Source of the DNA: Omphalotus guepiniiformis
Lineage: Eukaryota > Basidiomycota > Agaricomycetes > Agaricales > Omphalotaceae
Length of the DNA: 64,000 nt
Direction: 5' to 3'
Assembly: GCA_028554645.1 (NCBI GenBank)
Contig: JAQOOI010000040.1
Coordinates: 62,001-126,000, forward strand
Within the stretch, counting starts at the first letter, position 1, and each line of letters begins with the position of its first letter. Shown here in pieces: positions 11,120-49,461 of the stretch. The notes beneath the pieces are model-generated. The model worked only from the letters and a program-made list of their open reading frames with translations, made no database searches and had not been told where the DNA came from. Made by a program: the position numbers and the translations under genes.

Positions 11120-12604
11120 ATGCCAGCGACTCGAGCCACCACCCCAACCTTTGAAAATGAATACCCCCTTCCGGCGCCATTCGGACGTCCGGAACCCGAG
11201 CCAAGGGTCAAACCAGCCTTGCCTCGAAGGAAGACACCGGAGAATGCGGAGGAGTTTGATAGAATAAAAGTGGCTATTGCCATGGGTGAGTTTATCCTGT
11301 CTGCGGATGTCCGATACTCAATGTTCTTTTAGTTGAACAAGAAGAAGATAGGGAGTGGGCTGAGTACGATAAGGCAAAGAATGAGTGGACAGAGGAAGTC
11401 CGGAGGATTCAGGAGTGGCGTCAGGAGGCGCAAGAAAAGTGGAGGGCGGAGGAGCGAGAGCGGAGGAGGAGAGAGGTTGAGGAGGCGCAAAGGATTCTGG
11501 ATGAGGAGAACCGGAGGGCCGAGGAGGAAAGTGAGGCGGAGGAGGAGAAGAAAGCCAGGAGGGCTATTGAGAAGGCCGAGGAAGCGAGGAGGAGGAAAGA
11601 GAAGAGGGATGGGAAACGAAAGGCACAAGAGGAACCGGAGGCCGGTGGGTCTCCTAAGAAAAAGAGAAAAAACGTGATTTCAGCGGTAAGTAAATGAATA
11701 CCAGTATTGGAATTGAGTTATAACAAAATATTAGTCTATTGTCATTTCAGATGAAGAAGACAAAGAAGAAGAAACCGGAGCTCCTAGCTCCCGACCCGCC
11801 TGCCTGCAGTGCCGGGCACGACGATACCACTGTTCCGGGCGCCCTCGGAACACCAAATCCACCTCCTGCGACGAATGCAGGAAACAAAAATCAAAATGCT
11901 CGTTTTCGGAGCGAGTCGGTGCTCCAAGTACCACCACCACTTCCTTTTCTCCGGCTTCCCTCGAGCTGCTCATGCAGCAAAATGAAGAAATACTATCCAG
12001 GTTAGCTAGGTTAGAGAAGAAGGTCGAGGGACGAGCAGGAGAGCCTCGGGACTCCGCGGAGCTCTCCGAGTTAGATTTGGTGAACCGGCGGATCGACGAC
12101 GTTGACGCCGCCGTATACTCAACTAGAGAAGAGGTCTCTAGTTGGGGTGTTTTCTTGGCGGAGCGGACCCGCGACTGGGCCCTTGCCTTGGGAATGGCAA
12201 TGGGTGCAACGACTCCTATCCAGGGGTCGTACATCATGAACCAGGCGATAATCAACGCCTCGATCCGGCTCGCCGAGATGGGCCGAGAGCTACACTTTGC
12301 TTGGGAGCGGGACCAAGCAGAGCGATCGGATGCCCGTCCGGAGGTCCGAGAACCGACCCTCCCAAGTGTAATGAACAGTAGGATGGTTCAGGGAGTACTG
12401 GGCGGAGAGGCCGCCCAGTTGACTGAATTTTTTGAACAAGTGGAAGAAATCTGCACGGGCGTCCGAGAAGTCCCGGCAGAGAGGATCAGACAAGAGGAAG
12501 AGACGAATTCTCGCTATACCGCGGAGGAGCGAGAGATGTTCGCAGAGAGGCGAAGAGAAATCGAGAGACGACGAGAAGAGCGCGGAGGTCCGAGTAGGAC
12601 GTAA
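11120..12604 (+). CDS. Gypsy B opposite-strand accessory protein (coiled coil, NLS, SIM-like, Zn2Cys6-like)
   Basis: Predicted 462-aa protein from exons 11120-11285, 11333-11685 and 11735-12604; phases join cleanly and both introns are GT-AG. Residues about 57-160 are a highly charged coiled coil. PKKKRK at 163-168 equals the classic SV40-type nuclear localisation signal. SIVISDEED at 174-182 fits a SUMO-interacting motif (hydrophobic core then acidic residues). Cysteines 196, 199, 206, 218, 221 and 228 are spaced C-x2-C-x6-C-x11-C-x2-C-x6-C, the Zn2Cys6 fungal DNA-binding pattern, followed by a short second coil (about 248-272). It ends 190 bp from the pol stop, tail-to-tail. An alternative acceptor at 11750 would lose the cysteine frame, so the upstream acceptor is preferred. 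I infer a nuclear, chromatin- or DNA-binding role; no such protein is part of the standard Ty3 set. Confidence 0.75.
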
Positions 12605-12794
12605 ATAGAGAATGAAATGTAGATAGAAAGAAATGGTGTTGTAATAACTTCTGTTTTTCCTTGATAGCTTTTTTGTTTTGTTTGTATATAAATGAATGTC
12701 TGTTTTTTACGATGAGATAAGCGTGATAATAAGAGAAAGATAGAAATAAGAAAAGAAAGAAACACCAAGACCGTCAACATCCGAGGACGTCCGA

Positions 12795-14423
12795 TCAGAC
12801 TATCAACTTCGACAGAGGTCCAGGTTTGTCCGGATATCGGACATGGAAGTCCTGGATGTAGTCTTCAGCCGTGAGTTCATCAGCTAAGACCCACGAGAAT
12901 TCTTCATCTGTTCCTTCATAACCAAGCCATTGGACATAGTACAATAGCGGACATTTCCGGCGTCTCCGATCCAACTTGGAGTCCAGTATTTGAGCGATCT
13001 CGTATTCAACTTCACCGTTGACCTCAACCGGAGGAGGCGGAGGTTGCGTGCGGTTAGGAATGGTGTTGGGAGGTGCTGGTTCGAGTTGGGAGACATGGAA
13101 TACTGGATGTACGGACCAGAGGTAGTCCGGAAGCTGTAGTGTATAGGAAAGGTTACTAGGTCGAGCTAGAATTTTAAATGGTCCTAGATATTTCTCGGAA
13201 AATTTAGCTGTAGGACGGGTAGAACGAATGTGCTTAGCGTTAAGATATACTTCTGAGCCAATGGGAAATTCCGGAGCCAAGGACCTCCGCTGGTCAGCTT
13301 GTTCCTTGTAACGAGTCTGAGCAAGAGTAATCTCATTGCGTAGAAAAGTGTGGAGCTCGTCAAGGTTGACCACAAACTGTTGAGCCCGGTCGGATGCGAG
13401 GTCGTATTCCGGATGTATTGAAAGGTTTGGGTGATAACCTTTGTTGGCAAAGAAGGGTGAAATGCCAGTGGAGCCGTTCGGAGCATTATTGTAAGCAAAC
13501 TCTGCAATGGCCAAGAGTTCATCCCAGTCATCCTGTTGGTAAGAACAATAAATTCGGATGTACTGTTCCAGAGTTTGGTTAGCTCGTTCAGTTTGTCCAT
13601 CAGCCTCTGGATGATAACCGGAGGTGTAATGAAGCTCCATCTGCAACGCTTTACCTAAAGCCCTAAAAAACTGCGAGACAAACTCGGAGCCCCGGTCGGA
13701 GGTGACATGCCGAGGAACACCGTGTTTGGAGAATACGTGAAGGACAAAAAGTTGGGCTAGCTGTTCGGAGGTTATGGTGTCAAAAGTAGGAATAAAAATG
13801 GCTTGCTTAGATGCCCTGTCTACCACGACTAGAATGGCTGTAAAGCCATGAGAATCCGGAAGTTGTTCAATGAAGTCCATGGATATGGAATCCCAAGGAC
13901 GTTCCGGTACTGGGAGAGGTTGAAGAAGACCATAAGGACGGTGTCTACGGCTCTTGTTGCGACCGCAAACAGTGCAGGATTGCACATAGGACCAGACGAA
14001 CTCTCGGATCCGAGGCCAGGTATACTGTCTTCGGATGACCTTGAGTGTCCGGTTCTGCCCAAAGTGTCCTGAAAGTGGATGGTCATGGAAATGTCAAAGT
14101 ACCTGAAGCCGCAGGTCACCTGAGTCTGGAACATAAATGCGACTGTTGAGCCGGAGTTGTCCGGAGTTGTCTAAAGTCCAACGTTTGTTAGCATCATCAT
14201 TGGCAAGTGACATACCTGCCTTGGACTCCGGGTCTGAAGCTAGAGATTCCCGGATCGACTGGTGTAGTTTGTCGAGATCCATAATGATACTAGCGCGAAG
14301 GACCGGACCTTCTAGGAAAGTTGCTCGAAGTGAAGTCGATAGTTGTTCTTGGGTGAAAATCGGTTTCAGATTCTGTGGATTGACCGTAGCGTAACAACCA
14401 TAGCTGCTAGAATGAAGATTCAA
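12795..14423 (-). pseudogene. Gypsy B integrase with chromodomain, truncated
   Basis: C-terminal part of a Ty3 polyprotein. From its N-terminal side: the HHCC zinc motif (HDHPLSGHFG, then CTVC), the catalytic core with SMDFIEQL, VTSDRGSEF and GQTERANQ, a GPF/Y-type region, and a chromodomain (YEIAQILD, YYVQWLGY). It would insert the cDNA and direct it to marked chromatin. One in-frame TGA at 14094-14096 interrupts the frame where Arg is expected, another CGA-to-TGA change; the remaining 430 codons are open. RT, RNase H and gag are absent because the KDZ terminus begins immediately upstream. Confidence 0.9.
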
Positions 14424-14549
14424 TAAGGGTATTTGCCCTCAGTTCATGATGCTTCATGGAGGGCAGTTTCCCTTGGGCCTAAATATAGGGCATTTGACGG
14501 TTTAGGGAAATTACCCTACATACCATATATAGTGCTGTTACTAGTAACA
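14424..14549 (+). repeat. KDZ left terminal inverted repeat, copy 2
   Basis: 126 bp matching the inverse of 22750-22875 except a few positions. The inner end is TGTTACTAGTAACA, itself palindromic. Confidence 0.88.
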
Positions 14550-22875: not shown

Positions 22876-22903
22876 ATGAAGCTTCAAACCAGCAGCTACT
22901 GGT

Positions 22904-26245: not shown

Positions 26246-27478
26246 GCGTTTCCTGAGCTTCTGTCCAAAGCTTCTCCTAAGAAACTCAAGGAGTTGCCTC
26301 TTGTTGAAGAATCTTCCTCTGACGACGACGACTTTGACAATGAAGAAGAAGAAGAGGATGAGCTGGAGTCTCTGCCAAAGAAAAAGGTGAAGTGTGTCCC
26401 CTCTCCGGCACTTCGATCGCAGATCCAAACTCAGTTGACTACTTCAATCCCTACATCTACTCATTCCGGTGTTTCACACGGTTGAGGTTGTTCAAAAAAG
26501 CTCAAACCCAAGGTAGGTATCTTTATTCAATTATTTTATTAACATTATTTTCACTAACTAACACATTTCTAGGAAACGGTTGAGGTTAGCGCTGGCGAAG
26601 ACGACGAAGTAGTCAAAACTGTCACTGTCAACCCCTACAAAATTACATACACTACCAACGCAGTAAGTTCCACTTTATATCTTTATTCTTGTTTCTCTTT
26701 AGCCTACCGGCAGCAAGAAGTCCTTTATCAGAGATTCACACCTCGCCACCTCCGCAGCTATGATTCCCTTCAATTTTGTTGATCCTACCGGCTTACAACA
26801 CAAGTTCAAGGACCTCGTCACCATCAATCAGTCTCTCCAGGGTTACAGCTTGAATCCCATCTGCGCTGGATGCCTAGCCGGCAATCTCAGTCAGCCATGC
26901 GTATGGCGCGGAGAGGACAACAAAGGTAGTGTCTGTGAGAAATGGAAACGGCCTTGCTCCTTTCAATATTTGCTTGACGGTATCACAAAGGTGCGCGACC
27001 TTGCTTTCCAGGAAGGACGTCAACACCCTGCTGGTACATAGTCTTATTTTAATCTTTTTCTGTCATTCTAATTTTTGTTTTATTAGCAATCAACACACAC
27101 GTTTCGAATTTACTACAACTTCACGCTGATTTCGACAACCTTGTTCAGCAATCAAATCAAACTCGCGAGTCTGCCAAATGTTTGAGTTCATTGATCCAAA
27201 CTGAACAACAGCATCTTCGCGAATCATGTGTAGATGCTCGCAGCATTCTTCGTTCTCTTGAGCCAGATGCGGAATTCTTAGCAAATAAAGGCCAGATGGA
27301 ATTGCTAGCAGCAGCTCTCGGGTGGCAAGTCGACGACTTTCGGCTTCATAGCGCAATCAGCACCAACGACCAAGGCGAACCGATAGCCGTAGATCCCGTG
27401 TTTTTAGACAAAGCTAGAGAAACTGCAAATCAAAGTGCAGGAGTTGGGGAATCGCAGGAGGTAAGTCCAGAAGCTTAG
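26246..27478 (+). pseudogene. Cysteine-cluster coiled-coil gene, 5'-truncated by LTR-Y
   Basis: Exons <26246-26512, 26573-26662, 26703-27033 and 27087-27478; phases agree and introns are 40-60 nt. The first exon has no ATG because the LTR boundary replaces the 5' end, and it holds TGA at 26483 where CGA would read through. An acidic run (SSSDDDDFDNEEEEEDE) is followed by a cysteine cluster C-x2-C-x8-C-x11-C-x6-C ending CSF (26862-26958), resembling the gypsy B accessory protein cluster (which also ends CSF), then helices and LANKGQMELLAAALGW. I infer it is a relic of the same accessory family from another retrotransposon, but a host gene is possible. Confidence 0.6.
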
Positions 27479-28083: not shown

Positions 28084-28091
28084 TATAAAAG
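28084..28091 (+). promoter_or_regulatory. TATA box of the gypsy C opposite-strand gene
   Basis: TATAAAAG lies 89 bp before the ATG at 28173, on the strand opposite to gag-pol. Confidence 0.55.
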
Positions 28092-28172: not shown

Positions 28173-29493
28173 ATGGCACCTACTCCTACTTTCATCAAAG
28201 AAGACTAGCTTGCTCTGCTGGAACTTCGTCGCGGCACCTTTGACCGTGCTCGTGCTCGTAATGTTCCTGATGGAGAGATGTTCCAATTTGCTAAGACACT
28301 TTGGGACTTCTTGGTACGTTATTTTATTTTTAATAATCGTCCGGCATTTAATAATAAATTGAGTTTAAGGTTAAACCCCTCGATATGGCTACTACGGCTG
28401 CCGATGACGAACTCTTCAAGAAGTTTGAAGATAATGTCACTGCCCTTCAGGCGGTTATGGCGGCTCGTCCTCAAATGTCACCTCTTCTCTTCGTTCTGTA
28501 GCCGGACTTCAGAAACACCTCGACTGTATGGTTCAAGAACGTCTCAAGAATGCCACTGCTGCTGCTGAAGCAGTCGCTAAGGCTAAGGAAGAAGGTAACA
28601 ATCGTAAACGCAAGGTACAAATATCTACTGGACTTATATTCATTATCTAACTTTATCCCAGGGCAAGGAAACTCCCAAGTCTAAGGCTGTTTGTGACAAC
28701 GGCGACAACGTTGAAGTCATTGTTACCCCTCCTCTTGACAAAACTGTCGGTGAAGCACTTGTAAGTAATTTCCACCCAGTAATTAATAACCTTGTACTAA
28801 CACTTTGTACACATTGTTCTTACAGATAACTGATGGTACTAAGGACTCCAGCAGTGCTAAAGAAGCTAGTGCCATCAAGAATCTTACTGTAAGTCACTCA
28901 TTATTTTCAACCGGACATATATTAATTCGTTACTAGTTCCGTAAGGCAGAACTTATTGCAAACCAACACACCGTTGTAAGCATGCCATACTCAGCAGTTC
29001 CTGGATTGGATCAATCCTCTGGCGTGTACAGGAAGGCTAACCACTACATTTCAAAGGGTTTTGCGATATCTGGCCAAAAACGACTTAAGCTGGAAACAGC
29101 TGTTTCAAACCTTAGTGAAGAAACTGACTGTAAGTACACACTTAATAGTATTCATTATACATTCTGACATTAGTCTTTATAGTTGAGAAGACCCTATGTG
29201 ATATGGCTCACACCAGTGTTCTTAAGACACTTGTGTTCGTTTTATACTACGATTATGACCAACTCACGCTTGAATCTCTTAAGGCTATTCACAATTGCCT
29301 TCAAACTGAGTGTTCTACTCTCACACACATTGTTCAAACCAACAGTGCTCGTTATTGTGACATGCAGAAACTAGCAGACAATCTTTCCTTAGTTATTAAG
29401 AAGTCCATCAAAGGTAGTTCTGATGTTGACGGAGATGACTCCATGGACTCTGTAGATTCTACCTCTACCACCAACATGACTACTGATGAGTAG
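28173..29493 (+). pseudogene. Gypsy C opposite-strand accessory gene, damaged
   Basis: Six exons: 28173-28313, 28370-28614, 28662-28760, 28826-28888, 28937-29129, 29183-29493. Introns are GT-AG and short. It starts MAPTPTFIKED, then TAG at 28206 where CAG would fit (DQLALLELRRG), and a frameshift near 28480 inside exon 2. The product would be helical, with an Ala/Lys-rich basic segment (KAKEEGNNRKRK), VEVIVTPP, and a Ser/Asp-rich acidic C-terminus. No known domain. It ends 156 bp from the pol stop, tail-to-tail, matching the geometry in gypsy B and D. Function unknown; both lesions are simple, so intact relatives should exist elsewhere in the genome. Confidence 0.6.
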
Positions 29494-29648: not shown

Positions 29649-30885
29649 TCAAGTCTTTCTTTTTGACCTGGTTTTAACTCCTTCATCCCAATCTGGTTCT
29701 TCATTGTCTTCTAAGTCGTCTCCAAGATCTGAACCACTGTCTTCTTCATCAGACTCATCCCTTTCAAGCCTAAGATTGGGTATGGCATAAAAAATATAAT
29801 CTGTATTTTTGACCAAGTCTTTATCTTTACCTTCAATCATAGCTTCCAATTGTTTACAATCCAAGTCTATTAGCTCATGAATATTGTCTGGCAATTGTAT
29901 AGGTCCGTATCTGGCTGCATGTGGTAGGACTCTAAATGCTGCAACTTTTTCTTTGAGCACTGATCCATCCATTTCTGCAATAACATATGATCCACCTTTT
30001 GTCCTTCTGATGACAATCATGGGACCCTTATATCTTGGATACATCTTTCTATCTAAACTCTTTTCAATCTGAGTATTCCTGACTTGAACCAGAGTTCCTG
30101 GTTTAAAGTCATAATCCTTTATAGTATTTCCATATTCTTGTTCAAAACTTTATCAATGCTTTCCTTTTGTTTTCATCTACTCTTTCCCTCATTTCATTCA
30201 CATGAGTTCTATGCTTAGCTAGAGCTTGTGCTCTGAATCCAAGTAATTCTTCATGAGTCAGAACTCTGTCTGGAGGTTTAACCAACCAAATTGATTCCAC
30301 AATATCCAAAGGTAATATTGGCTCTGCACCAGTAACTATGAAGTATGGAGAACATCCAAGACCTCTTCTAACAGTCACTCTATCTGCCCAAAAGACATGT
30401 TTCAGAAACCAGTACCATCTCTTCAAATCTCCACCAGTTGCTTTTGCTAAAGCAGTTCTGATATCAAAATGAGCTCTTTCTATCTTTCCATTTGCTTGAG
30501 AATTGTATGGAGATATAGTGATACCTTTTATACCACACTTCTCTTCCAACCATCTCAACATTGCTCTCATAGCTGGGGCATTATCAGTGATAACCTCATC
30601 AGGGCAACCCCATCTACAGATAATGTCTTCAAAGAACCATTCACCCATTAACCTTGCTGTCTCTGATTTCAATGCTCTACCTTCTGACCAAGAAGACAAT
30701 GCACATCTACCATGAACAACATTTGAACAGCCATTACTAGGTGGTGACACTTTAAACACATCTACATAAACTTTCTGAAACAAAGAAGGTGTATAAGTAA
30801 GAGTGGGTGGTATTTTCAGAAGTTCCAACTTTCTATTTTGACACGCCTGACATGATTGGACAAACCAATTAATATCTTTCTCCAT
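29649..30885 (-). pseudogene. Gypsy C integrase
   Basis: Two frames cover the integrase: 30885-30142 has the zinc-motif cysteines (CQACQ), a DVF catalytic aspartate region, EVITDNAPAMRAM and NSQANGKIERAHFD, matching a DDE core. The 30044-29649 frame has a GPF/Y-like segment (YKGPMIVIRRTKGGSYVI) and ends in an acidic tail followed by KTRSKRKT. A frameshift separates them near 30100. TGA at 30893-30895, where the WWP motif of the zinc finger region is expected, separates the integrase from RT. Confidence 0.8.
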
Positions 30886-30894
30886 ATCTGGCCA

Positions 30895-32917
30895 TCAAAA
30901 TCTTTTGTCTATGACAGCTTTAGTTGAAAACATCCCTTTATGACCCAAATTGTCATGTGCAGCATGCATCATGTACATTCTCTTTTCTTTAGATACAACC
31001 AACTCATGTTGACCATCTAGTTCTTCATTCCTTCTATACATTTTACCATCTTTATCAACAAAGAACTTAACAGCTTGCCTTAGAAAAGATCTCTTTTCTG
31101 TTTTATTCAAACTTTTAATAACAGCTGAGTTCTTGTCTTGATGCCAATCCTTTATTAAAGGTAGAAGATCATCCATCTTCTTTCCTTCATCTCTTCTATG
31201 TACTTTACTATAAGGATGAGAATTACTCCACTCTGGATCTCCTGGTGGAATTACTAAAGTTTGAGCAAAAGCACTCTTCACCATTCCATGAGCTTCTAAA
31301 ACTCTAATCCTATAACATTCTGCAATTCTTTCTTCTTCTATGCATTCTTGCAAATTATCTTCAAAATCATTTTCAGAGTTTGCCATTTCAAAAAGATAAC
31401 CACCTCTATTGTCTATTTTATCTTTAAAAGATCCAAAGTCTAGTGGTATATCATCTTCTTCATTTTGCATTCTAAACTGTAATGGTTCTCCATTATCTTC
31501 ATCTACATAGTCTTCATCATTTACAGGTGGTCTTTCAGTTGTTATACCTCTAGGACCCCTTCTAGATAGACCATCTAGTCCATGTAAAGTTCCCTTAACA
31601 TATACCAATGTAAACTGATATGGACCTGAACTGGGATGATCCAACATGCCCTTTATATAACTAGCATCTGTTTCCACAGTCAAATTCCTACATTCATAAA
31701 TCAAGTAATAAGAAGCTTCTAAAGCTAACTTCAGGCCATACAGCTCTCTTTTTGGTTGAGAAAACCTTGCTTCCCTTTCATTCAATGTAATTGAACCAAA
31801 GTAGTTAAAGTACTTCTTCTTAGGATCTTCCAGGTCAGTTTGGTATATATAATATCCAACTGCCATCCAAGAGGTATTTACAGCAAGTGTAATCCCATTT
31901 TCTGACATATAGTCTATAGGTCTCAAACAAGGTGCAACTCTGATAGCTTCCTTAAGAGCTACTACAGAATCCCATTGTTCAGCCTTCATCTCAAATGGAA
32001 CATTTCTGGTCAAATATTGCAGAGGTGCAGCAATTTTAGCATAGTCCTTTATAAATTGTCTGAGTTGGCCAATAGTACCCAAGAAAGCTCTGACATCTGT
32101 CTTAGAGTCAAATCTTTGCCATGTGGTGACCACTTCTGCCATCTTATTAGAAGGTGCTTGACCTTCATATAAACAACAGTGACCAACAACCATGCCTTCT
32201 TTTACACAAATGAATGCCTTTGTACCAGAAAATGTACCACCAACATATTTCATTCTTTGTATCACTCTATTCATATTTTGCATATGTTCCCATACAAATC
32301 TCCTTATGCCATTGTTTTGAGGAATAGTTTCATATCTGCCATCTGGTAACTCATATCTCGTTGCTGGTCCCCTTACAGGTACATCATCAACATAAGGTAT
32401 AGTCACATGTGGAATTTCATCTCTTAGAATGAAAGTAACATCATCATGAAAGATAGGTACTGAGTTAGTCCAACCCATAGGCAGTTTTACTAGTCTATGT
32501 GGTCCAAATGGTGTTTGGAAGGTGGTTAAGTCTCTAGAATCATCATCTATCAACCTTTCATCATAGCCAACAAAGATGTCCAGTGTTCCTAGACATGCTC
32601 TTCCTGCAAAGTTTCTAGCAACATCTGCAGTAGCTGGTGGAATTCCGGAATGTTGTATAGTAACTTTATTCAATGGTTCCAGACTATGCACCAATCTCAA
32701 ACTTTTTCCATCTTTCTTTAATACACACATCATCAAATATACCAGGTGGTATTGGAATGTTTCTTTCAACCCAAGGTACATGTGGTAAGACTGGAAATTT
32801 CACAGGTGGAAAGAAATCTGTTCTAAAGTTTCCTCCTTCTGCAGGTTCCCAAGCAAAAGCTTTTTCCTGTTGTTTCATCAAATGATGACACTGCAAACAA
32901 TTCAACATAAACTCCAT
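30895..32917 (-). pseudogene. Gypsy C reverse transcriptase / RNase H
   Basis: RT with LDIFVGYDERLID, TPFGPHRLVKLPMGWTNS and the active-site YVDD (TIPYVDDVPV); connection region with FLGTIGQLRQFIKDYAKIAAPL; RNase H-like region with LAVNTSWMAVGYYIYQ and VETDASYI; then the HH part of the integrase zinc motif (HAAHDNLGHKGM). A frameshift near 32720 splits the RT N-terminus (32917-32684) from the rest. YVDD rather than YLDD and the divergent RT motifs put it in a different lineage from the chromodomain elements A, B and D. Confidence 0.82.
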
Positions 32918-32921
32918 GGGA

Positions 32922-33000
32922 AAATATTAAAAATATGGTGAAATTACATCAAAAGTTGGTATTTTCATGTTATTTCACCATATTTGTAATATTTTTCTGT
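32922..33000. mobile_element. 79-bp fold-back MITE inside gypsy C
   Basis: Two 29-bp arms (AAAATATT...ATGGTGAAAT and inverse) nearly pair around a 20-bp loop. TGGG occurs at both borders (32918-32921 and 33001-33004), a likely 4-bp target duplication. The 83-bp gain shifts the pol frame between LVHTANKSI and the next block. Confidence 0.6.
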
Positions 33001-33005
33001 GGGAT

Positions 33006-34992
33006 TTATATTGATTTGTTGGCAGTGTGAACTAACTTCATATCTTCTGGCCATAAAAAGCCTTCATCATGATTTTTGTCTATGATATTCTTTCTTTCTT
33101 CATTGTATCTTTCTCCTGGTGTAAACTCAGGTGGATTTGGAGATAATTCCGGCATTTCTGCTAATGGATCACCAAAAATATTCCTTTCTACACAAAACTC
33201 AGCCGGTAAAGTAGCTTTAACCGGTCTAACTTTATTCTTTACAGATTTGTACTTTCCATACACATCTACAAACTCTTTATCATTTTTCTCTTTCTCTATG
33301 TTACAAGAATTTTCCTCTTGAAACATAGTATCCTTCTTTTCTTTCAACTCTTCTCTCCAACTACAGAACACTTGCTTGTCTTTTCCTCTACTCTTTATAG
33401 TAGTAGAGTTCATATAGGCATCTAGCACTTCTGCAGCTTCTTTATCTTTTTCCACATACTCTTTAGCAGCAAATACAAAAGTTTTTGCCAATTCTTCTTT
33501 CTTAAAAGTTCCATCTTCATCAGGTAGTTTATACCCATCCACAAACAATTCACCATTTTCTTTCAGGCCAACTCTTAGAGCTACCTCTTCCTGAGGGCCA
33601 ATCAGATCATAGAGGTCTGAAATTTTACAACACCTTCTTGTACATCTTTAGGTACCACAGGTGGAGGTCTACAAAGCTCTTTAAGGGTAGATTCTTCTTT
33701 CTTCTGTTCAATTCTAACACCTCTTCCTCTCAGATAGGTTCCAATAGTACACTTGTAGCCAGAATTTAGATCAGTTATGGTTATCTCTTGACCTCCATCC
33801 TCAAAGTTCTTTATTATACTTTGGATGTTTACATCAAAAGGTCTACCAAGTAAAACTTGATATGGAGCCTCTTCCACAATATGAACTTGCAAGTAGACTG
33901 TCAAGTCCCCAAATACAAAAGGTACATTTCTAGCCATACCCTTAGTAGGCTTTAAACTTCCATTTGCACTTTGCATGTGAATCACTACATCAGGATCCCA
34001 TGACATTCCAAGTCCCATTGCTACCATTTGATCCATTGATATGATCTGAGAACCACTATCTAGAACAGCTTCCACAGTTTCATCAGAGTTATTGATTTTT
34101 GGGAATACCACTCCAAGTCCTTCTGATTCTCTAGCCACCAGTATAACTTTGTCTTTCTTGTTAGGACCTAGATCTCTAAGGAATTGCTCAACTACATCTT
34201 GGTGAACAATAGTACCAGCTTTCAATTCACCAGTATCTTTTGTCAATGTAATGAAAGCTTTAAAGACCAAATATCCTCAACATTTACTTTCTTTATTGGT
34301 TCCACCTCAGAGTCTATTTGAATAGGCTTCAAATCATTCTGATTAGGTTCTATCTGCAAGAAAGCCTTCTCTGCTCTCTTCACAACCCTTCTATTTCTAG
34401 CTTTTCTCAAGATAACAGCTCTAATGCCTGGAGATATGGCCATAAGGTCTCCAACTGGAACAGTAATATCCATATTGAAAATCTTTCCTGCCATTTCCTC
34501 TTCTAAACCTGGTTTAGATAAAGTAGAAGCATGTCTAAAGTCTCCAATCTTTCTAGCTGTTTCTTTATAAACTATAGCATTCTCTTTATTACTTTCTCTC
34601 TGAATATTTTCAACCTTTTCAACCACTTCATTTCTAACTTTGTTCAAAGCTTGGTTACTAGGAATAGGATCTCTTTGTAATGGTTCCACTCTATCAAATG
34701 GTCTTTCTTTAGCAGGTTTAACATTAATCTCTTTTTGACCTGGTTGAAAAACCATATCCTTTATAGAAGGATCCATTATATCCTCTTGATCTCTTAGCAA
34801 AGCCTCTTCATTATCCTTTATTTCTTTCGCTAACTCCTCCATTCTCAATGGTGGAGGTACATACAACCTTTTATCAAATCCTTTAGGCCTTATAATTTCT
34901 ACTTCCATTCTCTTTTTAATACCAACTCTTTGTTTATCCTCAGGGACCTTCTTTGCAGTACTGTACACGTTTCTAGTACTAGATCCCATCAT
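33006..34992 (-). pseudogene. Gypsy C protease and linker region
   Basis: Frames 34992-34243, 34270-33602 and 33548-33006 were one polyprotein, now split by frameshifts near 34255 and 33620. The middle frame holds the retropepsin-like active site (VEAVLDSGSQI) and the ILG-like motif (YQVLLGRPFD). The flanks are Lys/Glu-rich linkers without recognised domains. Confidence 0.75.
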
Positions 34993-35000
34993 TGGAATAC

Positions 35001-36473
35001 TTAGTTTCCCGACTGGTTCAAGTAAGAAGCCTGACCATTTGAAGTCTGGCTTTTGTCCTGATTTTCAATTCTATCCAATCTTTCTAAAATCTTCAACAAG
35101 GTGTTGGTAAAGACTGACATATCAAAACTATTATGTTGAGATTCAGGAGGTCTACTAGGCATATTATATCCCATGTCACTTTCTTCTGCAAAGATGAAGG
35201 CATTTTTGCCAACTTCCTTATCCCAACCTTTTTGTTTAGCAATAGCTTCAATTTTGTCCTTTCTAGAAGAATTCATATTACCAGATGGAGCAACTTGTCC
35301 ATCTTTCATGACTATCATTCCTCTTATATTCCTAACTAAATATCCTTTCTCAAACTGTGATTTTTGATGAGGACAATTTGTAGCAATATGCCCTTTCTCA
35401 CCACAGAAATAACAAGAATACTCTGTAGGTCCTTGTGGGTTTGCATATCTATTACCACGGTTCTGACCTATAGCAATAGATTGCATGTGTGGTATATTCA
35501 TACCGTTGTTACCACCTAATGTTTCTGCAAGAACTTTTTGAACTTGAGAGATCAAAGTAGCTTGATTCTCTTTAAATCTAGATTGCACTTGTTTCAAAGC
35601 AACTTCATGTCTATCTATTGTATTAGCAATCTTTCTTTCAAATTCATTCTTCTCAACATTCTCCCTTGTAATATTAAAAGGTGTGTAACTTCTTTCTCTT
35701 TCTGTTTCAGAAGCTAAAGATATTCCAACTATTGCAAAACCATCATCCATGTTATTCTCACAGATGTGGGCAGCAGCAGCTATCACATCCTCAATAGGAT
35801 ACTTGTCTTTCCTTCTTCTAGGATTATCTAGATGAGCTATATAAGTCTTTTCCAGTCTATCGATTACTTTATCCCAGAAAGCAGGTTCTAAGGATCTACC
35901 AAACAGAGTTACTGCCTCTAAATTAGAGATAACAGCAGGTGGCTTTGCAGCCTTCTTATACTCATATTCAAACAGCCTTTTAAACTTAAAGAACTTATCA
36001 AAGTTCTTCAATGGAATATATGCATACTCTGAATTTAACTTTTTCAACTTTGTCAGAGAACCTCCTTCTTCTAAAGAGGACTCTGGAAAGTTTTGTTTCA
36101 AAGCATCTTTGAATGTTCCCCACTTTCTACTTTTTGTTTCAGGGTAGGCTTCCACCCTTTTCTTTGTATCATGGGTCATCCAGTCTGTAGCTAAGTAAAT
36201 CTTTGCTGCATCATCTTTAATTCCCATTTTCAGGAATATTTCTTCCACTTGTTCCAACCAGCTTATCAAACTGCCAGGATCTACATGGTCAAAGATAGGT
36301 GCCATTTTTGATTTCTTAGGAAGCTTATCATTCTGGATTTCCTTCAATGCTTCTGGGGAAAGTTCATGAACTCCCACAAAAGTTGTCCTTGCATTATCAT
36401 TGTTTCTGGGTATATCATCATCTCCTCTACTTTGTCCACTTGGACCAGCACCAGCAGTACTAGTAGCAGACAT
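35001..36473 (-). CDS. Gypsy C gag
   Basis: 490-codon frame for the capsid/nucleocapsid precursor. It has a gag capsid-like region (WLEQVEEIFLKMGI, AKIYLATDWM) and one zinc knuckle C-x2-C-x4-H-x4-C (CYFCGEKGHIATNC) near 35380-35440. The frame stays open for about 110 further codons upstream (to about 36830) without an ATG, so the true N-terminus was probably longer and its start codon lost. It ends with a stop, with protease in another frame. Confidence 0.85.
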   Translation of the reverse strand: MSATSTAGAGPSGQSRGDDDIPRNNDNARTTFVGVHELSPEALKEIQNDKLPKKSKMAPIFDHVDPGSLISWLEQVEEIFLKMGIKDDAAKIYLATDWMTHDTKKRVEAYPETKSRKWGTFKDALKQNFPESSLEEGGSLTKLKKLNSEYAYIPLKNFDKFFKFKRLFEYEYKKAAKPPAVISNLEAVTLFGRSLEPAFWDKVIDRLEKTYIAHLDNPRRRKDKYPIEDVIAAAAHICENNMDDGFAIVGISLASETERERSYTPFNITRENVEKNEFERKIANTIDRHEVALKQVQSRFKENQATLISQVQKVLAETLGGNNGMNIPHMQSIAIGQNRGNRYANPQGPTEYSCYFCGEKGHIATNCPHQKSQFEKGYLVRNIRGMIVMKDGQVAPSGNMNSSRKDKIEAIAKQKGWDKEVGKNAFIFAEESDMGYNMPSRPPESQHNSFDMSVFTNTLLKILERLDRIENQDKSQTSNGQASYLNQSGN

Positions 36474-36982
36474 AGTAGTAACTTCTCTGAAACTCTTTTT
36501 AGATTTTTGTGCTGAAGCAGGTAGTCTATAAGACTTTCCAAATCCAACAGTAGATTTAGGTGGACGTAAACAACCAAATTCACCGGGTATGAACTCCCGG
36601 TTATTGTCAGATGACAGAACAAAAGAACCAGGTAATACTGGATCAACACTTTCAGGCTCTGATACTGATTTCCCTTTGCCCTTGGATGCAGAACTAGTAA
36701 CACTTCTTTCTCTTGTAGAAGATCTGGATTGATAGTTTAAAACTTCTTTACCAGCTCTTCGGGAATTCTTTGTCTGATGTTTTGGTTTAGGTTTGTTAGG
36801 TCCACTAATTTTGACAAGTGAACTTCACAATCCAAAAATAAAGCAAAAGCTCTATGTAGCACTGTATAGAACAAAACAATACTTTTTTATTGCACAACAC
36901 AAATTTCCTTGTAATTCAGTTGGTAAAATTCTGTTAGAAAGCCACAAATTCATCCCTCACAAAGTCAATTTGTACTTTTGAC

Positions 36983-37001: not shown

Positions 37002-38381
37002 TGATGTGAATAAAACGGGGAAATGAACTGCTAAAGGGCTAATGAACAAAAACCCAAAAACAACCAAAACAACCAAGTCACTCGAAAGGTGTGAGTCTGA
37101 GGGGGCGTTGTCAAAGGTTCCACACAACCAAACTTATGACTTCTTTATTAGAACTTTATATCTTTATCACAAGAACTTTATAGTTGAGCTTTTAAAATGC
37201 ACTAAGGCAAAAAGGAGCACAAGCAGGTTTTGAATAAGGCAGGTGTTCACTGCACAATCACAACCAATTGACCACAAGATCAAACAACCAATTCCAATAA
37301 CACAACCAGTTCAATTCAACCAACAATGATCTTTATACAATATCACAATAAACACCAGACTATTAACAGACCAGGGCAACTTTATGTTTTTGGTAGGATT
37401 TCCCTTCACAGGCACAATTCATGTTATAAAGACGATCCCCAGTGACCCTGTGACTCTATGGTACTCTCCTGGTTTTCTCTCTCCAAGTTACTGCCCTTTT
37501 ATACATACTGCCAGTCCAAAATTAATAAAAACGGAAATTATAGCTAAACTGTCCTGTTTTATATATATACCTATATCCGTGCACGTAGGATGTAAGTACC
37601 CGTATCAAGTATGTCCATTATTACTTGTTATAGATCTATTTTATGAGGCAAACCTCAAAAATGTGTTTTAATTCCATTATTTTTATTGTGGGCAATATTC
37701 AGCCCCTTTATTTCATTTTTACGGATTTCCTTGACATTTTCTCGGACATCCGGGTTCCATAGGATTAATCACCTGATAGAAATTATACCCCTCCAAGTAT
37801 CACATTGTTTTGTCAAAGGAACTCCTTCAATTCAGTAGTATTCCGAGAAATTTTACTGATTGAGTTTTTACACCTCCTAACTGGTTTCTTGTCAAGCAAT
37901 TTTCACCGGACAATTAATCAAAGCAAATTTCCTCGATCAACTTTTGTTCCTGGCAATTAATTAAGGAGTAAATACCCCAGAACTATTCTAAATCCATTAT
38001 TTTGACTCTATTTTGTGTTCCATCCATTTTTAGTTTCCGCCGGGTTTTTTTAATCTTTATTGACCGGAGGAAGATGTTCCCCTAATAATTATATGATGCA
38101 ATTGACGTTGTGATGTCAGAGTTCTTGTTACGAGATTGGGTGAGTCTGATTCAACAGTGGATGGCCATTGAACAATTCTCTACATCACAACTATACTGAC
38201 TAGCCTAGAATCTTGATACACATGTTGTACCGTAGGTAATAGAACATGCTTTATTACTCAAATCACAACACATTTTGATTGACAAGGTGGGCACCTTTCA
38301 ACCCTCTATATCCCTTACTGCAAATGCCTAAAGTGATTAATCACCTGGCTTTTAATGCAGGTGTCGAAAATCGGTGCATCA
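37002..38381 (-). repeat. LTR-Y (-), 5' LTR of gypsy C, 1380 bp
   Basis: Inverse copy of 24865-26245 with the same TGATG/CATCA ends. The primer binding site adjacent to its 3' end (in minus orientation) marks it as a 5' LTR. Its other end is joined directly to a Copia fragment at 38382. Confidence 0.85.
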
Positions 38382-39140: not shown

Positions 39141-39145
39141 GGGAG

Positions 39146-44668: not shown

Positions 44669-44927
44669 GATAGAACGAAGGGATAGACATGGATTGGGTG
44701 GTGTATGGGAAGCAGATTATATATGTTTCTCCAGCTTCTTCCTGTTAGGAAACAGAAGGTAAGGGTTAGTTACTCTGATCCACAGTATGGGGGTTGGGGG
44801 CTAAGTTGTATTAATTGAGAATCTACTCAAAGAACACAATGTAGAGATGAGCTGAAGTGATAATCTATATCACAGAGAAAGGAAATGTAAGGAGTGATGT
44901 CTCAGATATCACTAGAAAGGTAGGTTC

Positions 44928-45300
44928 CACTTGGAAATGCTTCAAGTGAGAACAGGAGATTTGATTACTGGAAATGCTTCAGTAACCAAGGGAATCTAGA
45001 TACTTGGAAATGCTTCAAGTAGTCTAAGGATGGAATGAACAACTGGAAATGCTTCAGTTATTCAAAGAGAAAGCCTGGAAATGCTTCAGACAATCAAGGG
45101 AAATACTGCTGGAAATGCTTCAGCAATACTTAAGAAAAGACACTGGAAATGCTTCAATGCCTTGGAGAATATCTGGAAATGCTTCAGATAATCAGAGGAA
45201 ATACTGCTGGAAATGCTTCAGCAATACTTAGGGAAAGACACTGGAAATGCTTCAATGCCTTAGAGGTTCAGTCACTGGGAATGGTTCAGTAGACTAGAGA
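44928..45300 (-). repeat. Array of about 11 covarying hairpins in the D LTR leader
   Basis: The core TGGAAATGCTTCA repeats about every 30-36 bp. Flanks differ between units yet pair: CACTTG/CAAGTG, TTACTG/CAGTAA, TACTTG/CAAGTA, AACTG/CAGTT, TGCTG/CAGCA (twice), TATCTG/CAGATA; two units have one mismatch and one is weak. The core itself can add AA/TT pairs around a 4-nt loop. Located downstream of the minus-strand TATA box, so it should be in the 5' leader of the genomic RNA. Confidence 0.8.
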
Positions 45301-45393
45301 GAGTAAGAAGTACTTGTATTGACAAGACAGGTTACAAAGTAGAGGTTCACAAGAAAACAATAACTAGACTAAGGTACACTAAGTTGGGTGGGG

Positions 45394-45401
45394 TTTATAT
45401 A
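45394..45401 (-). promoter_or_regulatory. TATA box of gypsy D LTR
   Basis: TATATAAA on the minus strand separates the U3 sites (right) from the hairpin leader (left). Confidence 0.65.
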
Positions 45402-45451
45402 CACAATTCTGAGTAAAGATATAAAAGGAAAGTATCTACAATGAGGCTGCA

Positions 45452-45718
45452 TGAGTCAGTTTGACTAGAGATGACTGTGAGCATGCGTCATTCTGACTAG
45501 ACATGGCTCTTGAACATGAGTCACTTTGACTAGGCATGATTCAAGTCACTATGAGTCTATAATGTGACTATATATGACTCAAGCTTCCATAAGAACTTCA
45601 GGATGACTTGTTATGACTCATGTGTAATGGATGCTGCAGCATGACTGGTTATGACTCAAACTGCAAGCTGAAGAGGATATAGAAATCATGGGACTGAAGG
45701 GAGGCTGTACATGACTCA
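45452..45718. promoter_or_regulatory. Cluster of six AP-1/Gcn4-type sites in D U3
   Basis: Perfect TGAGTCA at 45452 and 45517 and perfect TGACTCA at 45575, 45614, 45652 and 45712, with several one-off variants between. In fungi this heptamer is the consensus of Gcn4/Cpc1-type bZIP factors. They lie about 50-320 bp upstream of the TATA box. Confidence 0.7.
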
Positions 45719-45878
45719 GATCAATTATGTAGTGCATCATGTATGACCACAGAGTGATTGGTTAACAAGTAGGCATTTGGTTGATACCAGAAAATTTAAA
45801 AATTTCTGTCTTTCTTGTGTATGCCATTATTTGCTGATTGATCTGTGGCTCTGTACCTGTATGTACTGACTCCTAACA

Positions 45879-48235
45879 GTACACCCCCCTTCACCAGCCA
45901 GAGCCCTCGACGGCCTTGCCTATTCATGCTGAAATTTAGCACAAAGTTGAATCGAGTCCACAGTCCTGTCGTAATCTGCCTGTACCATCCTAATAGTATT
46001 GTACTTTATCGTTGAAAGGATTTGCGTGAGCCCGTTAGCCAGGTCTTATTTAATTCACGGATATTCCCAAACATTGGACGGACAGACGCGCGCACGGCAT
46101 GATTTGCTAATATTGGTCACGTGCTTTGTTGGTGGACGCGCGTCCATCTGTTTTCTGTCTGTCATTACCGCCCGGCTCCTCTCTTCACTGCTATTTCTCT
46201 TTTCTTGTTCCGTAGATTTCTTTGAATCTGGGCACTTCGTCACAGGTATGCAATTAGGACTGTGGGATTAAATGTTTTATTGATAAGTCTTTCCGGATAT
46301 CAATGTACACTCTCAAGCCTTCAAGATGTTTCTCATTGAAGCTACTTAGAACTGGCTTCCACGTTGTGGGTAGATGCAGGAAGTTGTCAGAAGCGGGGCA
46401 GCGTAAGACAGGGTCTGACGGTATTAAGGTGCGCGTTTGTTCAAAGATAACTCGTTTGTTCTGATTCTCCAGCTTCCTCTTTTGTAGATGTCGTATACGT
46501 GAAATCGGCGGAAACAGAGCAGTGTAGGACCAGGTATGTTGTTCGATGATTCTGAATGCCTCAGGTCTCTGACGTCCAACTATAGGAAGGTTGTATACTT
46601 CGATAACGAACATTCTGTACTGACCATCGTGTGAAGGACGAAGTTCGAAGGGCAATTACACCAAGCGATACTGCTGAGTGGCGACGACCATATGCGGGTG
46701 GAGTAGAGTGAGAATGCGTAGGTGCACGAGGTGGAGATGGAAGTTTTTTCCAGGACGTGACACCTTTGACGTTCAGATGCGTGTTTCATTTCGTACGTTT
46801 CTGATTTTATTAGGGTTCTGCCTCTGTACTTATGGGATGGTTTCCAACTTCAACAATGAATATTCTGGGACGATTCCTACGGACAATGCTGGCGAAGGAC
46901 GACAAACCATAGGGGAGTGGAGTGGCGAAAAGCTTCGCAGATGCATGAGACGGAGTGAAAGTCCTTCACGGGATGTAGTACAGCTTCGACGTTCCGGTGC
47001 GTGTTTCGTTTTGATATGCTCCGGTCGTCTTCTAATTTTCCTTGCCCAATCCCCCTCAAATTCCTAGTCCTTCGTCCGCATATTATCCAGCTGACTCATT
47101 CTTAATTTCTCTTCGAATTTTCCAAGTCTCGCACTTCGCAATGTGATGAATTAGGTGTACGTGGATGGTAGTGGGGATAATAGGAGCATGTTTTTAATTT
47201 AAACCTGCTTCGTTGTTCTGTGAAGACGACACCTGACCATTTAGACCAGGTTTTCACACAGGCGCAGCATAGACCGTTGAGAGGGCTGGAAAGCATACTT
47301 TCTCTGCCTTTCATTTGTTTGTCCAGTACTTGTCCGTTGGTGAGGTATGACTCCTTTCACTCTTTTCTCTTCGAATTCTCTGATCTGATGGGATAACCAG
47401 GCTACTTTCAGTGGGAGAACATTTCGTGAATGATGACATTTCGACTCCAATGAACGATACGGCAAGATGAAGGCGAGTGGCATGTTCGACAACAAATATT
47501 CTGACAAGGACGGCTATGCGGATAACGAGGTTCACGAGATGGCTTCAGCATGCGAGGGTTATGTGTGGGCATCGAGAAGTTGGGTGGAGTGGGGATTAGA
47601 GGTGCGTGTTTCATTTCAGCTTGCCTTCGTCGTTTTCTGATCTCCCATGTTCTTCTCAATATTCGGATGTTTCTACGGTGTATGCTGGGGACTATTGAGA
47701 AGTGGAAGGAAATTTCGTGAACAATGACGTTTTCGATTCTTGATGGACTGTACGGCAGGACGAACGCCAGCGGTGTTCGATTCATCGACGAACCTTCTGA
47801 TGGGGACCACTACGAGAGTTCACGAGATGTTTTTGGCAAGCAGAGGGTGACGAGGGCTTAGATGGGTATGTAATAGGATGGGAACTAGGTGCGTGCTTCA
47901 CACTGTTCTCTGATTCCTTTCTGACCTCTTCAAGTTGCACCTCTTTAGCTCGAAATGACTGTTGTCTTCTCGTGATGAAAGGACCTCGGGCAAGGGAACG
48001 AAAGAAGGAGTTGGAGGTTTTTTCACAGAACATAATGGCTCAACGGGAGAGGAGTAGATTCGATATTCAGGCGCGTGCTCCACATTTCATTGTTTCCCTG
48101 ATCTTAGAATGTTCTCGGGTTGTTATACGCCACCTATCAGAAAGAATGCGGAACCGTTTTTCGACCTGTGACTCGTCTCGAATAACTAGCTTGATGGTCT
48201 CGAAGAAGGGTACTGGGTTGGAATTTGGGCTTCAA
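45879..48235. other. Long 3' region of gypsy D with degenerate repeats
   Basis: Starts (minus strand) at the polypurine tract GAAGGGGGGTGTAC. No convincing gene. Diverged units recur on the plus strand with a GTGCGTGTTTCATTTC-like core at 46778, 46998, 47602, 47889 and 48073, and with AATTTCGTGAA-like segments about 289 bp apart (47424, 47713). Short frames on both strands are probably incidental; the G-TGCGTG boxes could also be splice donors of a decayed multi-exon gene upstream of the accessory gene. Confidence 0.5.
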
Positions 48236-48241
48236 TATAAG
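48236..48241 (+). promoter_or_regulatory. TATA-like box of the gypsy D opposite-strand gene
   Basis: TATAAG in AATATAAGACC, 76 bp before the ATG at 48312. Confidence 0.5.
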
Positions 48242-48311
48242 ACCTAGTCTTTACTTGTGTATTTCTGTCCTTATTACCCTTGTAATTCCACTTTCTGCAT
48301 CCCTGCATATT

Positions 48312-49461
48312 ATGAACTTCGAGACTTTCAACAATGCGGATTCGAGCGCTCTGTTTCTTCCTCACATCACCGCGGAGCCTCTGAGCTGGATGAACGTGCC
48401 AGTCATGCCGGCTCTGACTTTGCGTGAACTTGTAGATGCGTGTGTAATCTTGATCTTACATTTGTTATACAAGTCTGACACCTTGTCAGCCGTATTTTGG
48501 AGCTGGAGCAAGAATGTTCGTCAAGTGAAGAATTGGCAGAGGCTTCAGACGTAGAAGCGGAAACTAGACAGTAAGTAGTAGTTTCTCCTGTCAAAATTCT
48601 TTGTTGGTAATGACAATCATGTTGTAGGTTGATCGCTGGTCTCCGCGTGCAGATTAAGCTGTTGCAGGATGAGAAGGAAGCTTTGGAACTTGCTCGTAAG
48701 ACCCTTGAGAGGTACGAACATGTGTCTCCTTTCATTCTTTCTTATGTATTGACCTACATCCCTTCCATAGTGACCTTTCTCGGGTTCAGGATGAGTTGAA
48801 GGATGCTCGTGGGGTTAATACCCGCATATGTCGTTTGGCCTCCGATCTTCAAGAACAGGTCCGCCGCTTTACACGCATGAAGAATTCTTACCACTGTGTG
48901 GTTTCAGCTCAGACAAAGCGCAATTGTGAACTTCGTGAACGCGATGCTCTTATTGCCCGTCTTCGTCATGAGTTTGAGGCAAGCACCTTCTTTCAACGTA
49001 TATTGGCGGACATGGTGTACCGTGAGCTTCGTGCTGATCCGACCCCTTTCTTTGATGCGCTCCACAAGGACTTGCAGACCTTTGTCCAGGGCGTGTTCCA
49101 GGCTCAACGACTGCTGTCAGAGGGTATGTTAAGGGTGACTACCTTGGAGAACTGGATCGTTGAATGTTTTGATAAGATGGCTGACACCATTGCGCAAGCT
49201 CATCTCACTCGTGATGAGTTAGTCACTCAGAACTTTCAACGTCTTGGTATCCAAGACCCCTTGGCTTATCTTTCTAGCATCTCTCGTGTAACTTATCCAA
49301 GTGCATGGGCAGTAGCAGAACCTCGTATTGAGCCTGTTAACATTAACCTGCAGGAAACTTCTGATCTTTCTCCAACTGTCATTGATCTTACTGGAGAGGA
49401 TGATGAGGATGAAGATGGTGAGGAAGAGTTTGTGTACCCAGGAGAAGTTGAAGAGGATTAG
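48312..49461 (+). CDS. Gypsy D opposite-strand accessory protein (coiled coil, SIM-like acidic tail)
   Basis: Predicted 327 aa from exons 48312-48439, 48490-48570, 48628-48711 and 48771-49461; lengths sum to 984 nt and all phases agree (donors GTGTGT, GTAAGT, GTACGA). A short N-terminus leads into a coiled coil (about residues 45-130; LELEQE, LRVQIKLLQDEKEALE, SDLSRVQDELKDA). A helical middle follows, then VIDLTGEDDEDEDGEEE from residue 301, matching the canonical SUMO-interacting motif (hydrophobic core plus acidic stretch), to the end. It lies inside the retrotransposon, opposite to pol, stop to stop 110 bp apart. No known domain or homologue recognised. I infer a nuclear adaptor; the identical second copy is intact too. 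Confidence 0.75.

Follow-up and report, generated by a model that had tools for sequence, protein, structure and literature searches.

The window, a 64,000-nucleotide stretch of Omphalotus guepiniiformis DNA, contains the gypsy elements A, B, C and D. Our analysis shows that, in the Ty3/gypsy families of B, C and D, the interval from pol to the 3' LTR holds genuine accessory genes on the opposite strand, one or two per family (Table 1). Exon models that withstood tests on dispersed copies bore out the original prediction of a multi-intron gene lying antisense and tail-to-tail to pol in all three elements, and TATA-like boxes were found where it had placed them, 74 (B), 89 (C) and 76 bp (D) before the ATG. 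It had given stop-to-stop distances of 190, 156 and 110 bp, of which the first was recovered exactly, whereas C and D measured 155 and 109 bp. The tail-to-tail position stood as well, but the polypurine tract near C, at 27967, is internal, and the LTR lies farther out. Gypsy A had been said to lack such a gene, and this proved correct: its pol frame reaches 6479, past an in-frame stop at 6117-6119, and is followed directly by a purine tract (6480-6487) and a likely LTR start (TGTTACG, 6491; by eye, without LTR-pair support), so that no room is left for an antisense gene. Similarly, no antisense accessory gene was seen in family L083 (pol frame of 1432 aa), where a purine tract lies ~30 bp after the pol frame, with a putative LTR. 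Beyond the L083 tract we noted a P450-like sequence, which scored 16.8 bits with PF00067 and stayed below its cut-off of 22.8.

Table 1. Features of elements B, C and D in the window
Feature	Position	Strand	Basis or remarks
B 3' LTR, part (ends ...GTAACA)	10370..10911	-	query returns LTR pairs around gene-B copies
B, pyrimidine-rich complement of polypurine tract	10912-10923		by eye
Gene B TATA-like TATAAAAG	11046..11053	+	first six bases identical in 21/22 loci, window copy included
Gene B exon 1	11120..11285	+	exon model in frame
Gene B exon 2, basic stretch SPKKKRK near its end	11333..11685	+	exon model in frame
Gene B exon 3: SIVISDEED, Zn2Cys6 cluster C-x2-C-x6-C-x11-C-x2-C-x6-C, helical C-terminal part	11735..12604	+	PF00172; aligned copies
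B pol C-terminal part: integrase, SH3_Tf2-1, chromodomain	12795..14093	-	Pfam
Gene C1 incomplete 5' part, acidic and basic stretches	26249..26512	+	frame, splice sites by eye; in-frame TGA in window copy
Gene C1 exon	26573..26662	+	splice sites, frame
Gene C1 exon, Zn-cluster-like C-x2-C-x8-C-x8-C-x2-C-x6-C, one Cys replaced by Gly in window copy	26703..27033	+	aligned copies
Gene C1 last exon	27087..27478	+	parsed copies
Internal polypurine tract between C1 and C2	27967..27981	-	allele divergence stops near tract
Gene C2 TATA-like TATAAAAG	28084..28091	+	first six bases identical in 26/27 loci, window copy included
Gene C2, six exons 28173-28313, 28370-28614, 28662-28760, 28826-28888, 28937-29129, 29183-29493	28173..29493	+	aligned copies
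C gag-pol, decayed: zinc knuckle, protease, RNase H, integrase zinc-binding domain	29649..36824	-	Pfam
C 5' LTR side, repeat R	37002..38381	-	same-orientation R pairs in other C copies
D 3' LTR (TGTTAGGA...TCCTAACA), hairpin array 44933-45290	44745..45879	-	ends by eye
Gene D TATA-like TATAAGAC	48236..48243	+	
Gene D, four exons 48312-48439, 48490-48570, 48628-48711, 48771-49461; coiled coil, VIDLTGEDDED	48312..49461	+	intact in 5/5 loci
D pol: RT, RNase H, integrase, SH3_Tf2-1, chromodomain	49571..53146	-	Pfam
Second gene D copy, tandem D element	60873..62022	+	four exons identical to 48312-49461

Gene B encodes a 462-aa product from three exons joined in frame. Its introns measure 46-50 nt, with one of 68, and the coding lengths of the intact copies (16 of 22) differ by multiples of three only. 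Searching with the B LTR (40 of 64 candidates scored) showed 14 gene-B copies to be bracketed by same-strand pairs with a spacing of 7.9-9.5 kb, so that the gene lies inside two LTRs in 14 of the 31 close copies; a 3' LTR is present at 20 of the 31. An opposite-strand pol match adjoins 28 of these 31 copies and 12 of the 15 gene D matches, in a context count that took in 52 of 150 SH3 matches, most of them picked because their contigs bear B or D matches. One B-like pol match, C11:176256, had no gene-B match among the matches listed. The expectation that homologues would sit beside antisense pol thus held for most close B and D copies, but 15 of the 46 compared B protein matches (taken from 53, seven short pieces being left out), all 35-51% identical, lay away from listed chromovirus pol matches, and B-like genes may occur in another context as well. 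That none of these 15 relatives has a listed chromovirus pol match within 1.5 kb is in line with captured host genes travelling as passengers; purifying selection in dispersed copies is not expected for passengers, however, and C2-like genes recur beside the pols of distant families, which makes this origin very improbable.

The window copy of C2 is broken by a stop at codon 12 and a frameshift; the gene is intact in 19 of 27 aligned copies (30 loci were fetched), with products of 342-351 aa. Upstream of C2, the C elements contain one more antisense gene with introns, C1, which, like the diverged accessory alleles on near-identical pol described below, is new beyond the original prediction. 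Motif matching parsed C1 in 13 of 24 flanks and failed in 11. Its two last exons are open in 12 of the 13 parsed copies, the six cysteines of its cluster are invariant across 7 aligned copies, and the cluster exon and last exon show a dN/dS of 0.04-0.09. In the window, the 5' part of C1 abuts, at 26248, an LTR copy in the wrong orientation, the R copy at 24865-26248 being inverted relative to the one at 37002..38381, while four other C copies have same-orientation pairs of the R segment 13.3-13.4 kb apart. On C72, the orientation of two R segments could not be reconciled with a simple LTR picture.

Of 70 pol loci scored (the best 70 of 440 candidates), 66 have a C2-like gene tail-to-tail with pol, among them 43 of the 45 with only 64-68% pol identity. 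Order and spacing were kept in 48 remote C1-C2 pairs. Among 96 remote C2-like matches, a C1-like or pol match was listed for 76, both for only 15 and neither for 20; the C1 context count covered 90 of 91 rows, one 28-aa fragment being left out. Gene D, with a 327-aa product, is intact at all five loci, two of which are the identical tandem in the window. Among its relatives (L073-L080), L073, at ~60% identity, shares the three introns with gene D and also has a TATA-like box and VIDLT, and the IDLT core of VIDLT/IIDLT is invariant in eight aligned D-type proteins. Counted from pol on the C side and from the gene in B and D, coding regions of the aORF-3R type, which lie between pol and the 3' LTR and run antisense to gag-pol, are present in most copies of the family and are not one-off captures.

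These genes are maintained by purifying selection in dispersed copies. For shared variants, N/S relative to neutral was 0.16 in B (22 copies), 0.38 in C2 (25) and 0.29 in D, the last from five rows including two of the identical tandem and from 11 variants only; duplicate or partial rows (L001; L009, L034, L035; L040) were dropped and L039, the tandem identical to the window D, was kept. Singletons came closer to neutrality in B (0.77) and C2 (0.63), the pattern anticipated once copies have inserted, and not in D (0.08). Shared variants are thus purifying and not neutral in B, C and D, and most copies examined lie tail-to-tail with pol, in agreement with the earlier proposal of conserved accessory genes. 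Splice dinucleotides varied in 0 of 40 columns compared to 114 of 431 other intron columns when B, C and D were pooled (Fisher p by family: B 0.05, C 0.0013, D 0.36).

The opposite orientation would also allow the antisense RNA to matter in place of a protein, by forming dsRNA with the genomic RNA that feeds silencing or copy-number control, an idea discussed for plant antisense aORFs (PMC7264820). Yet amino acids and splice sites are under selection, indels in intact copies are in-frame and, in the tail-to-tail arrangement, the coding parts stay separate, leaving an RNA role only a slim chance. A 218-aa minus-strand ORF opposite B exon 3 could likewise mean that an env-like ORF on the sense strand was taken for an antisense gene, and its frame has an N/S of 0.31, because its third positions coincide with plus-frame third positions. 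This ORF is broken in 20 of 22 B copies, which identifies the plus strand as the coding strand, and the plus frame is tighter (N/S 0.15). The sense-strand reading is refuted for B, and we give the env-like explanation practically no weight.

Elements with near-identical pol can bear deeply diverged accessory alleles. Accessory dS was 1.65 compared to 0.09 for pol in the D relatives and 1.9 compared to 0.08 for C1, where Nei-Gojobori values above ~1.5 are near saturation, and 0.17-0.31 compared to 0.02-0.07 in B; C2 showed no dS excess over pol of the size seen in C1. At the internal polypurine tract of C, identity climbs from 64-90% to 88-100% (three pairs). Exchange of alleles between elements is equally compatible with functions other than regulation. 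Near-identical backbones with deeply diverged alleles would suit a self-repressor that limits copy number and confers allele-specific immunity, as in lambdoid phage immunity regions; however, the LTR segments next to either C1 class share 96-97% identity with the window R over ~200 bp, and no target varying with the allele was found, so that we regard self-repression as unlikely.

A nuclear role fits the motifs of the predicted products, namely the basic stretch and Zn2Cys6 cluster in B and VIDLT in D. Gene B matched PF00172 marginally, at 21.7 bits against a cut-off of 21 and over model positions 1-15 of 39; two gene B exon-3 sequences scored 22.9 and 21.3 bits, and the six cysteines are invariant across 10 aligned copies. 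A PDB search with B exon 3 returned only LEU3 (E 0.13-0.16). Two C1 alleles gave no Pfam match, PF00172 included, the spacing in the first half of their cluster being x8 and not x6. Profile comparison of B and C1 aligned 40 columns over the cluster only, with a probability of 5.6%, and is not evidence of homology. The words CGGAG/CCGGA are enriched in B, most in the LTR (7-8x); since CGG-type words are enriched 4-6x in B pol too, the LTR is not singled out as target of the zinc cluster, and this, with the marginal Zn_clus score, weakens the reading of B as a regulator.

We take SIVISDEED in B and VIDLTGEDDED in D to be putative SUMO-interaction-like motifs, and the basic stretches of B and C2 to be putative NLS; the SIM pattern was absent from C2 and from one of three B proteins. 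AlphaFold models of D exon 4 and B exon 3 were helical and of low confidence (mean pLDDT 52 and 47), too weak to use, and a protein search with B, C2 and D gave no match at E <= 0.001 in a 5.8-billion set whose fungal content is uncertain, a null that says little. The invariant IDLT core, the basic stretches and the failure of Pfam to detect a chromodomain in C pol, compared to its presence in B and D pols, would all be consistent with nuclear import or integration-targeting factors that travel with the pre-integration complex and anchor it to selected (e.g. SUMO-marked) chromatin. However, B and D pol already have a chromodomain, and a Zn2Cys6 cluster suggests sequence-specific DNA binding; we consider targeting a credible, if rather doubtful, alternative.

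Our data suggest that the elements produce proteins with a helper or control role in the nucleus, and that different versions of these pass from copy to copy. The best overall explanation, to which we assign roughly even chances, is that nuclear products bind the DNA or chromatin of their own element and adjust its expression. It draws on selection, the near-fixed position, conservation in L073, the Zn2Cys6 cluster and CGGAG/CCGGA enrichment of B, the excess of accessory over pol dS in B, C1 and the D relatives, and the precedent of VANC. As judged from sequence, the antisense genes are probably transcribed, spliced and functional; the conserved TATA box would point to a putative internal promoter of their own, and the introns, being antisense to the genomic RNA, would survive reverse transcription. 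The products would enter the nucleus and bind through Zn2Cys6 (B), the similar cluster (C1) and the SUMO-binding-like motif (D, B), and expression would be adjusted, most likely by countering host silencing or by element-specific transcription drive. Exchange of cassettes could then change specificity and permit escape from host or sibling control. More tentatively, the genes may form a swappable specificity cassette, in which spliced antisense genes, encoding nuclear regulators that bind DNA or SUMO, exist as deeply diverged alleles and recombine onto otherwise near-identical elements, in C near the internal polypurine tract.

A single genome thus offers many intact copies, clear selection, a two-gene version in distant families and nuclear-type motifs, and allele differences on near-constant backbones make function testable by setting side by side matched elements whose chief difference is the cassette. 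The antisense genes also show a way for a retroelement to keep introns. HBZ of HTLV-1 is likewise an antisense, spliced retroelement gene for a nuclear regulator, transcribed from the 3' LTR, and its protein is unrelated. Antisense extra genes of LTR retrotransposons have been described, and their function is not agreed (PMC7264820). Among the plant aORFs, those of maize Grande (gene23, with its own promoter and a nuclear product), rice RIRE2, Silene Retand and PvRetro13 are alike in position and orientation, whereas the available text of that article does not contain the word intron and mentions no Zn2Cys6, SUMO motif or allele exchange (PMC7264820). A figure of Tcn1-like chromoviruses, chromodomain gypsy elements of fungi and plants, includes an additional ORF of unknown function (PMC2864245).

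The original prediction had known of no defined fungal family with introns and its own promoter. That fungi offer no case is not supported, since the Boty-like elements of Botrytis cinerea are reported to carry brtn, an extra gene that lies between pol and the 3' LTR and runs antisense to gag-pol (Zhao 2011, via PMC8365987, PMC7264820, PMC4227169). From what these sources say of brtn, the present genes would be set apart by several unlike proteins, the tandem gene pair in C and many introns. Our literature search, with subscription literature mostly outside its scope, recognised no description of spliced antisense gene modules in fungal gypsy elements. The VANC proteins of Arabidopsis VANDAL transposons are TE-encoded, sequence-specific anti-silencing factors, related members of which act on different element spectra; they come from plant transposons with no shared sequence shown, and provide an analogy for mechanism only (PMC5735166). 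If confirmed, a swappable cassette would correspond, among retroelements, to the immunity regions of phages or to VANC-target pairs.

The antisense genes of the gypsy elements B, C and D, originally predicted to be spliced, proved real when copies were aligned across the searched genome (a 42.5 Mb assembly of 80 contigs that includes the window). Intron sizes near 50 nt, together with the kinds of element present, fit a fungus, probably a basidiomycete. Among 22 dispersed loci of gene B, the window copy included, both GT-AG introns were kept in every locus and 16 copies were intact, with introns of 46-50 nt (a single one of 68 nt) and intact coding lengths varying solely by multiples of three. 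Gene C2, the C-element gene tail-to-tail to pol, showed GT-AG in 134 of 135 introns over 27 aligned loci, 19 of them intact (the window copy is not among these), and gene D was intact with 15/15 introns at 5/5 loci, two of which are the identical window tandem. When B, C2 and D were pooled, none of 40 splice-dinucleotide columns varied, versus 114 of 431 other intron columns; for gene D alone this contrast was not significant.

Coordinates of the features (in the window unless a locus or contig is named)
Feature	Position	Strand	Remark
Gene B	11120-12604	plus	
Gene C1	26249-27478	plus	spliced, upstream of C2; incomplete in window copy
Gene C2	28173-29493	plus	
Gene D	48312-49461	plus	
B region scored for CGGAG/CCGGA	10370-14390		
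C internal polypurine tract	27967-27981		between C1 and C2, not adjoining an LTR
Sub-threshold DUF4100 (PF13352) in C gag-pol	34243-35064	minus	E 3e-5, 24.7 bits vs cut-off 27.9
Tandem D elements	44743-64000		two, with common LTR; 6.7 kb of second copy 99.97% identical to first
D LTR unit array	44933-45290		core GGAAATGCTTC
Direct repeat	1-2806, 20102-22907		2.8 kb, 99.9% identical; 404-aa open frame, no Pfam match
P450-like coding sequence	L083:578-1499	minus	PF00067 16.8 bits, below cut-off; by 3' end of a further chromovirus family
Clustered B-like zinc-cluster proteins	contigs C15:178458-193824, C4:30037-38881, C1:2138-5612, C13:4424-7897, C78:96-695		35-51% identity; those of C1, C13 and C78 lie <8 kb from contig start

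The shared variants showed purifying selection. Nonsynonymous to synonymous ratios (N/S) were scored against a neutral expectation respecting base changes and CpG, and variants present in two or more copies gave 0.16 for gene B (215 S, 82 N), 0.38 for C2 (76 S, 49 N) and 0.29 for D (6 S, 5 N, p 0.04; small numbers). Singletons gave 0.77 for B, 0.63 for C2 and 0.08 for D, so that in D, with few variants, singletons were constrained too, unlike in B and C2. Because shared variants are constrained and singletons nearer neutral, B and C2 appear to be selected while the element replicates and released once it is inserted.

Data further showed the predicted tie to the retroelements, with a pol match at 8/8 B loci, 27/30 C loci and 13/15 D-type places. 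Fourteen of 31 close gene-B copies sit inside same-strand LTR pairs 7.9-9.5 kb apart, and four C elements have same-orientation LTR segments spaced 13.3-13.4 kb, with C2 about 4.35 kb inward of the 3' LTR; the window's own C element has its left LTR copy in inverted orientation. The expectation that gypsy A has no antisense accessory gene was borne out, its purine tract lying directly where the pol frame ends, and none was seen in the L083 chromovirus family, whose tract lies about 30 bp past the pol frame. The P450-like sequence at L083 is perhaps a host gene adjoining the insertion. Collectively, these arrangements indicate that the antisense genes are part of the elements. Proteins resembling D (56-62% identity) are encoded at eight further places, plus two fragments; all eight adjoin pol of 81-90% identity, the match at L079 being limited to 115 residues. 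At L073 the three introns are positioned, by eye, as in gene D.

C elements carry a second gene, C1. Of its 13 parsed copies (24 flanks examined), 12 have the final two exons open; six cysteines are invariant, and four pairs gave dN/dS of 0.04-0.09. Genome protein searches with single exons as queries revealed numerous remote relatives of C1 (26-35% identity) and C2 (28-34%). A same-strand C2-like match lay downstream of 26/37 close C1 matches at 1.63-1.72 kb and of 48/53 remote ones at 2.04-2.15 kb. The C2-like gene was tail-to-tail to pol at 66 of 70 scored pol matches and, in families of 64-68% pol identity, present at 43/45, at a near-constant 1.52-1.62 kb. From this recurrence of remote pairs by distant pols we infer that the C1-C2 module is old and changes faster than pol. 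Among the matches listed, C1 and pol both lay around just 15 of 96 remote C2 matches, and neither at 20; C1 may fall outside the matches listed, be too diverged there or be absent.

Diverged accessory alleles were found on near-constant backbones. Between the D relatives L073 and L074, pol dS was 0.091 (458 codons) and accessory exon 4 had dS 1.65 and dN 0.25; L073 and L078, which have one allele in common, gave 0.077 for pol and 0.10 for the accessory gene. D against its relatives showed less contrast (pol dS about 1.24-1.39, gene dS 2.0-2.9 or saturated). Between the C loci L010 and L024, dS was 0.079 for pol and 0.109 for C2, against 1.89 for C1; pairs of one C1 class differed by 0.01-0.14 in C1. 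In 9 of 10 B pairs gene dS was 0.17-0.31 versus 0.02-0.07 for pol (ratio 4.5 to 8.7), the very close tenth pair (L001, L002) showing no excess. Because selection remains purifying, this divergence is not decay. Across the internal C tract, identity in three pairs rose from 64-90% toward the LTR to 88-100% toward pol, and C1 divergence ends nearby. Upstream of gene D some copies are unalignable, though the genes are mostly 92-99% identical; others align. Gene conversion of pol is another account of low pol dS beside diverged alleles; recombinational exchange of long-separated alleles, for instance by template switching, would be the simplest.

The D LTR contains an array of 13 listed units, 10 exact and three with two mismatches, two of the latter overlapping neighbours and probably not units. 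Some units recur in a 98-bp tandem. Flanking arms vary by unit with complementarity kept: 54 of 78 positions pair (G-U allowed) against a shuffled mean of 36.5, a value reached by 0 of 10000 shuffles. This looks like a hairpin array maintained by compensatory change.

The gene B protein has long charged stretches, a basic stretch SPKKKRK resembling the SV40 signal, and SIVISDEED, followed by a Zn2Cys6 cluster that scores 21.7 bits for PF00172 (cut-off 21) and by a part predicted, with low confidence, to be helical. C1 encodes acidic and basic stretches, a zinc-cluster-like exon that matched no Pfam family, and a last exon; C2, without match in a Pfam search, a basic stretch and then acidic DDDDNVEVIITPP; D, without Pfam match above cut-off, a coiled-coil-like protein with a VIDLT-acidic tail, VIDLT/IIDLT being retained in aligned relatives. 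We take VIDLT and SIVISDEED to resemble SUMO-interaction motifs. A chromodomain is present in B pol and D pol; none was found in the Pfam scan of C pol. None of the clustered B-like proteins lies beside chromovirus pol among the matches listed, and they may form a gene family related to B that belongs to the host or to another mobile element.

We favour element-specific nuclear regulators: a putative antisense transcript would yield a nuclear protein that counters silencing or trans-activates its own element, both ranked over integration targeting and self-repression. Zn2Cys6 proteins prefer CGG triplets. In B, CGGAG/CCGGA was 7-8 fold over-represented in the LTR and 4-6 fold in pol versus a dinucleotide shuffle, and both motifs are absent from the D LTR. 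That no LTR-specific target was found for gene B is among the strongest points against the nuclear-regulator reading. What is new, as far as our literature searches show, is the structure with many introns, the recurrence of a tandem two-gene module across families, motifs of the zinc-cluster and SUMO type, and the exchange of alleles.
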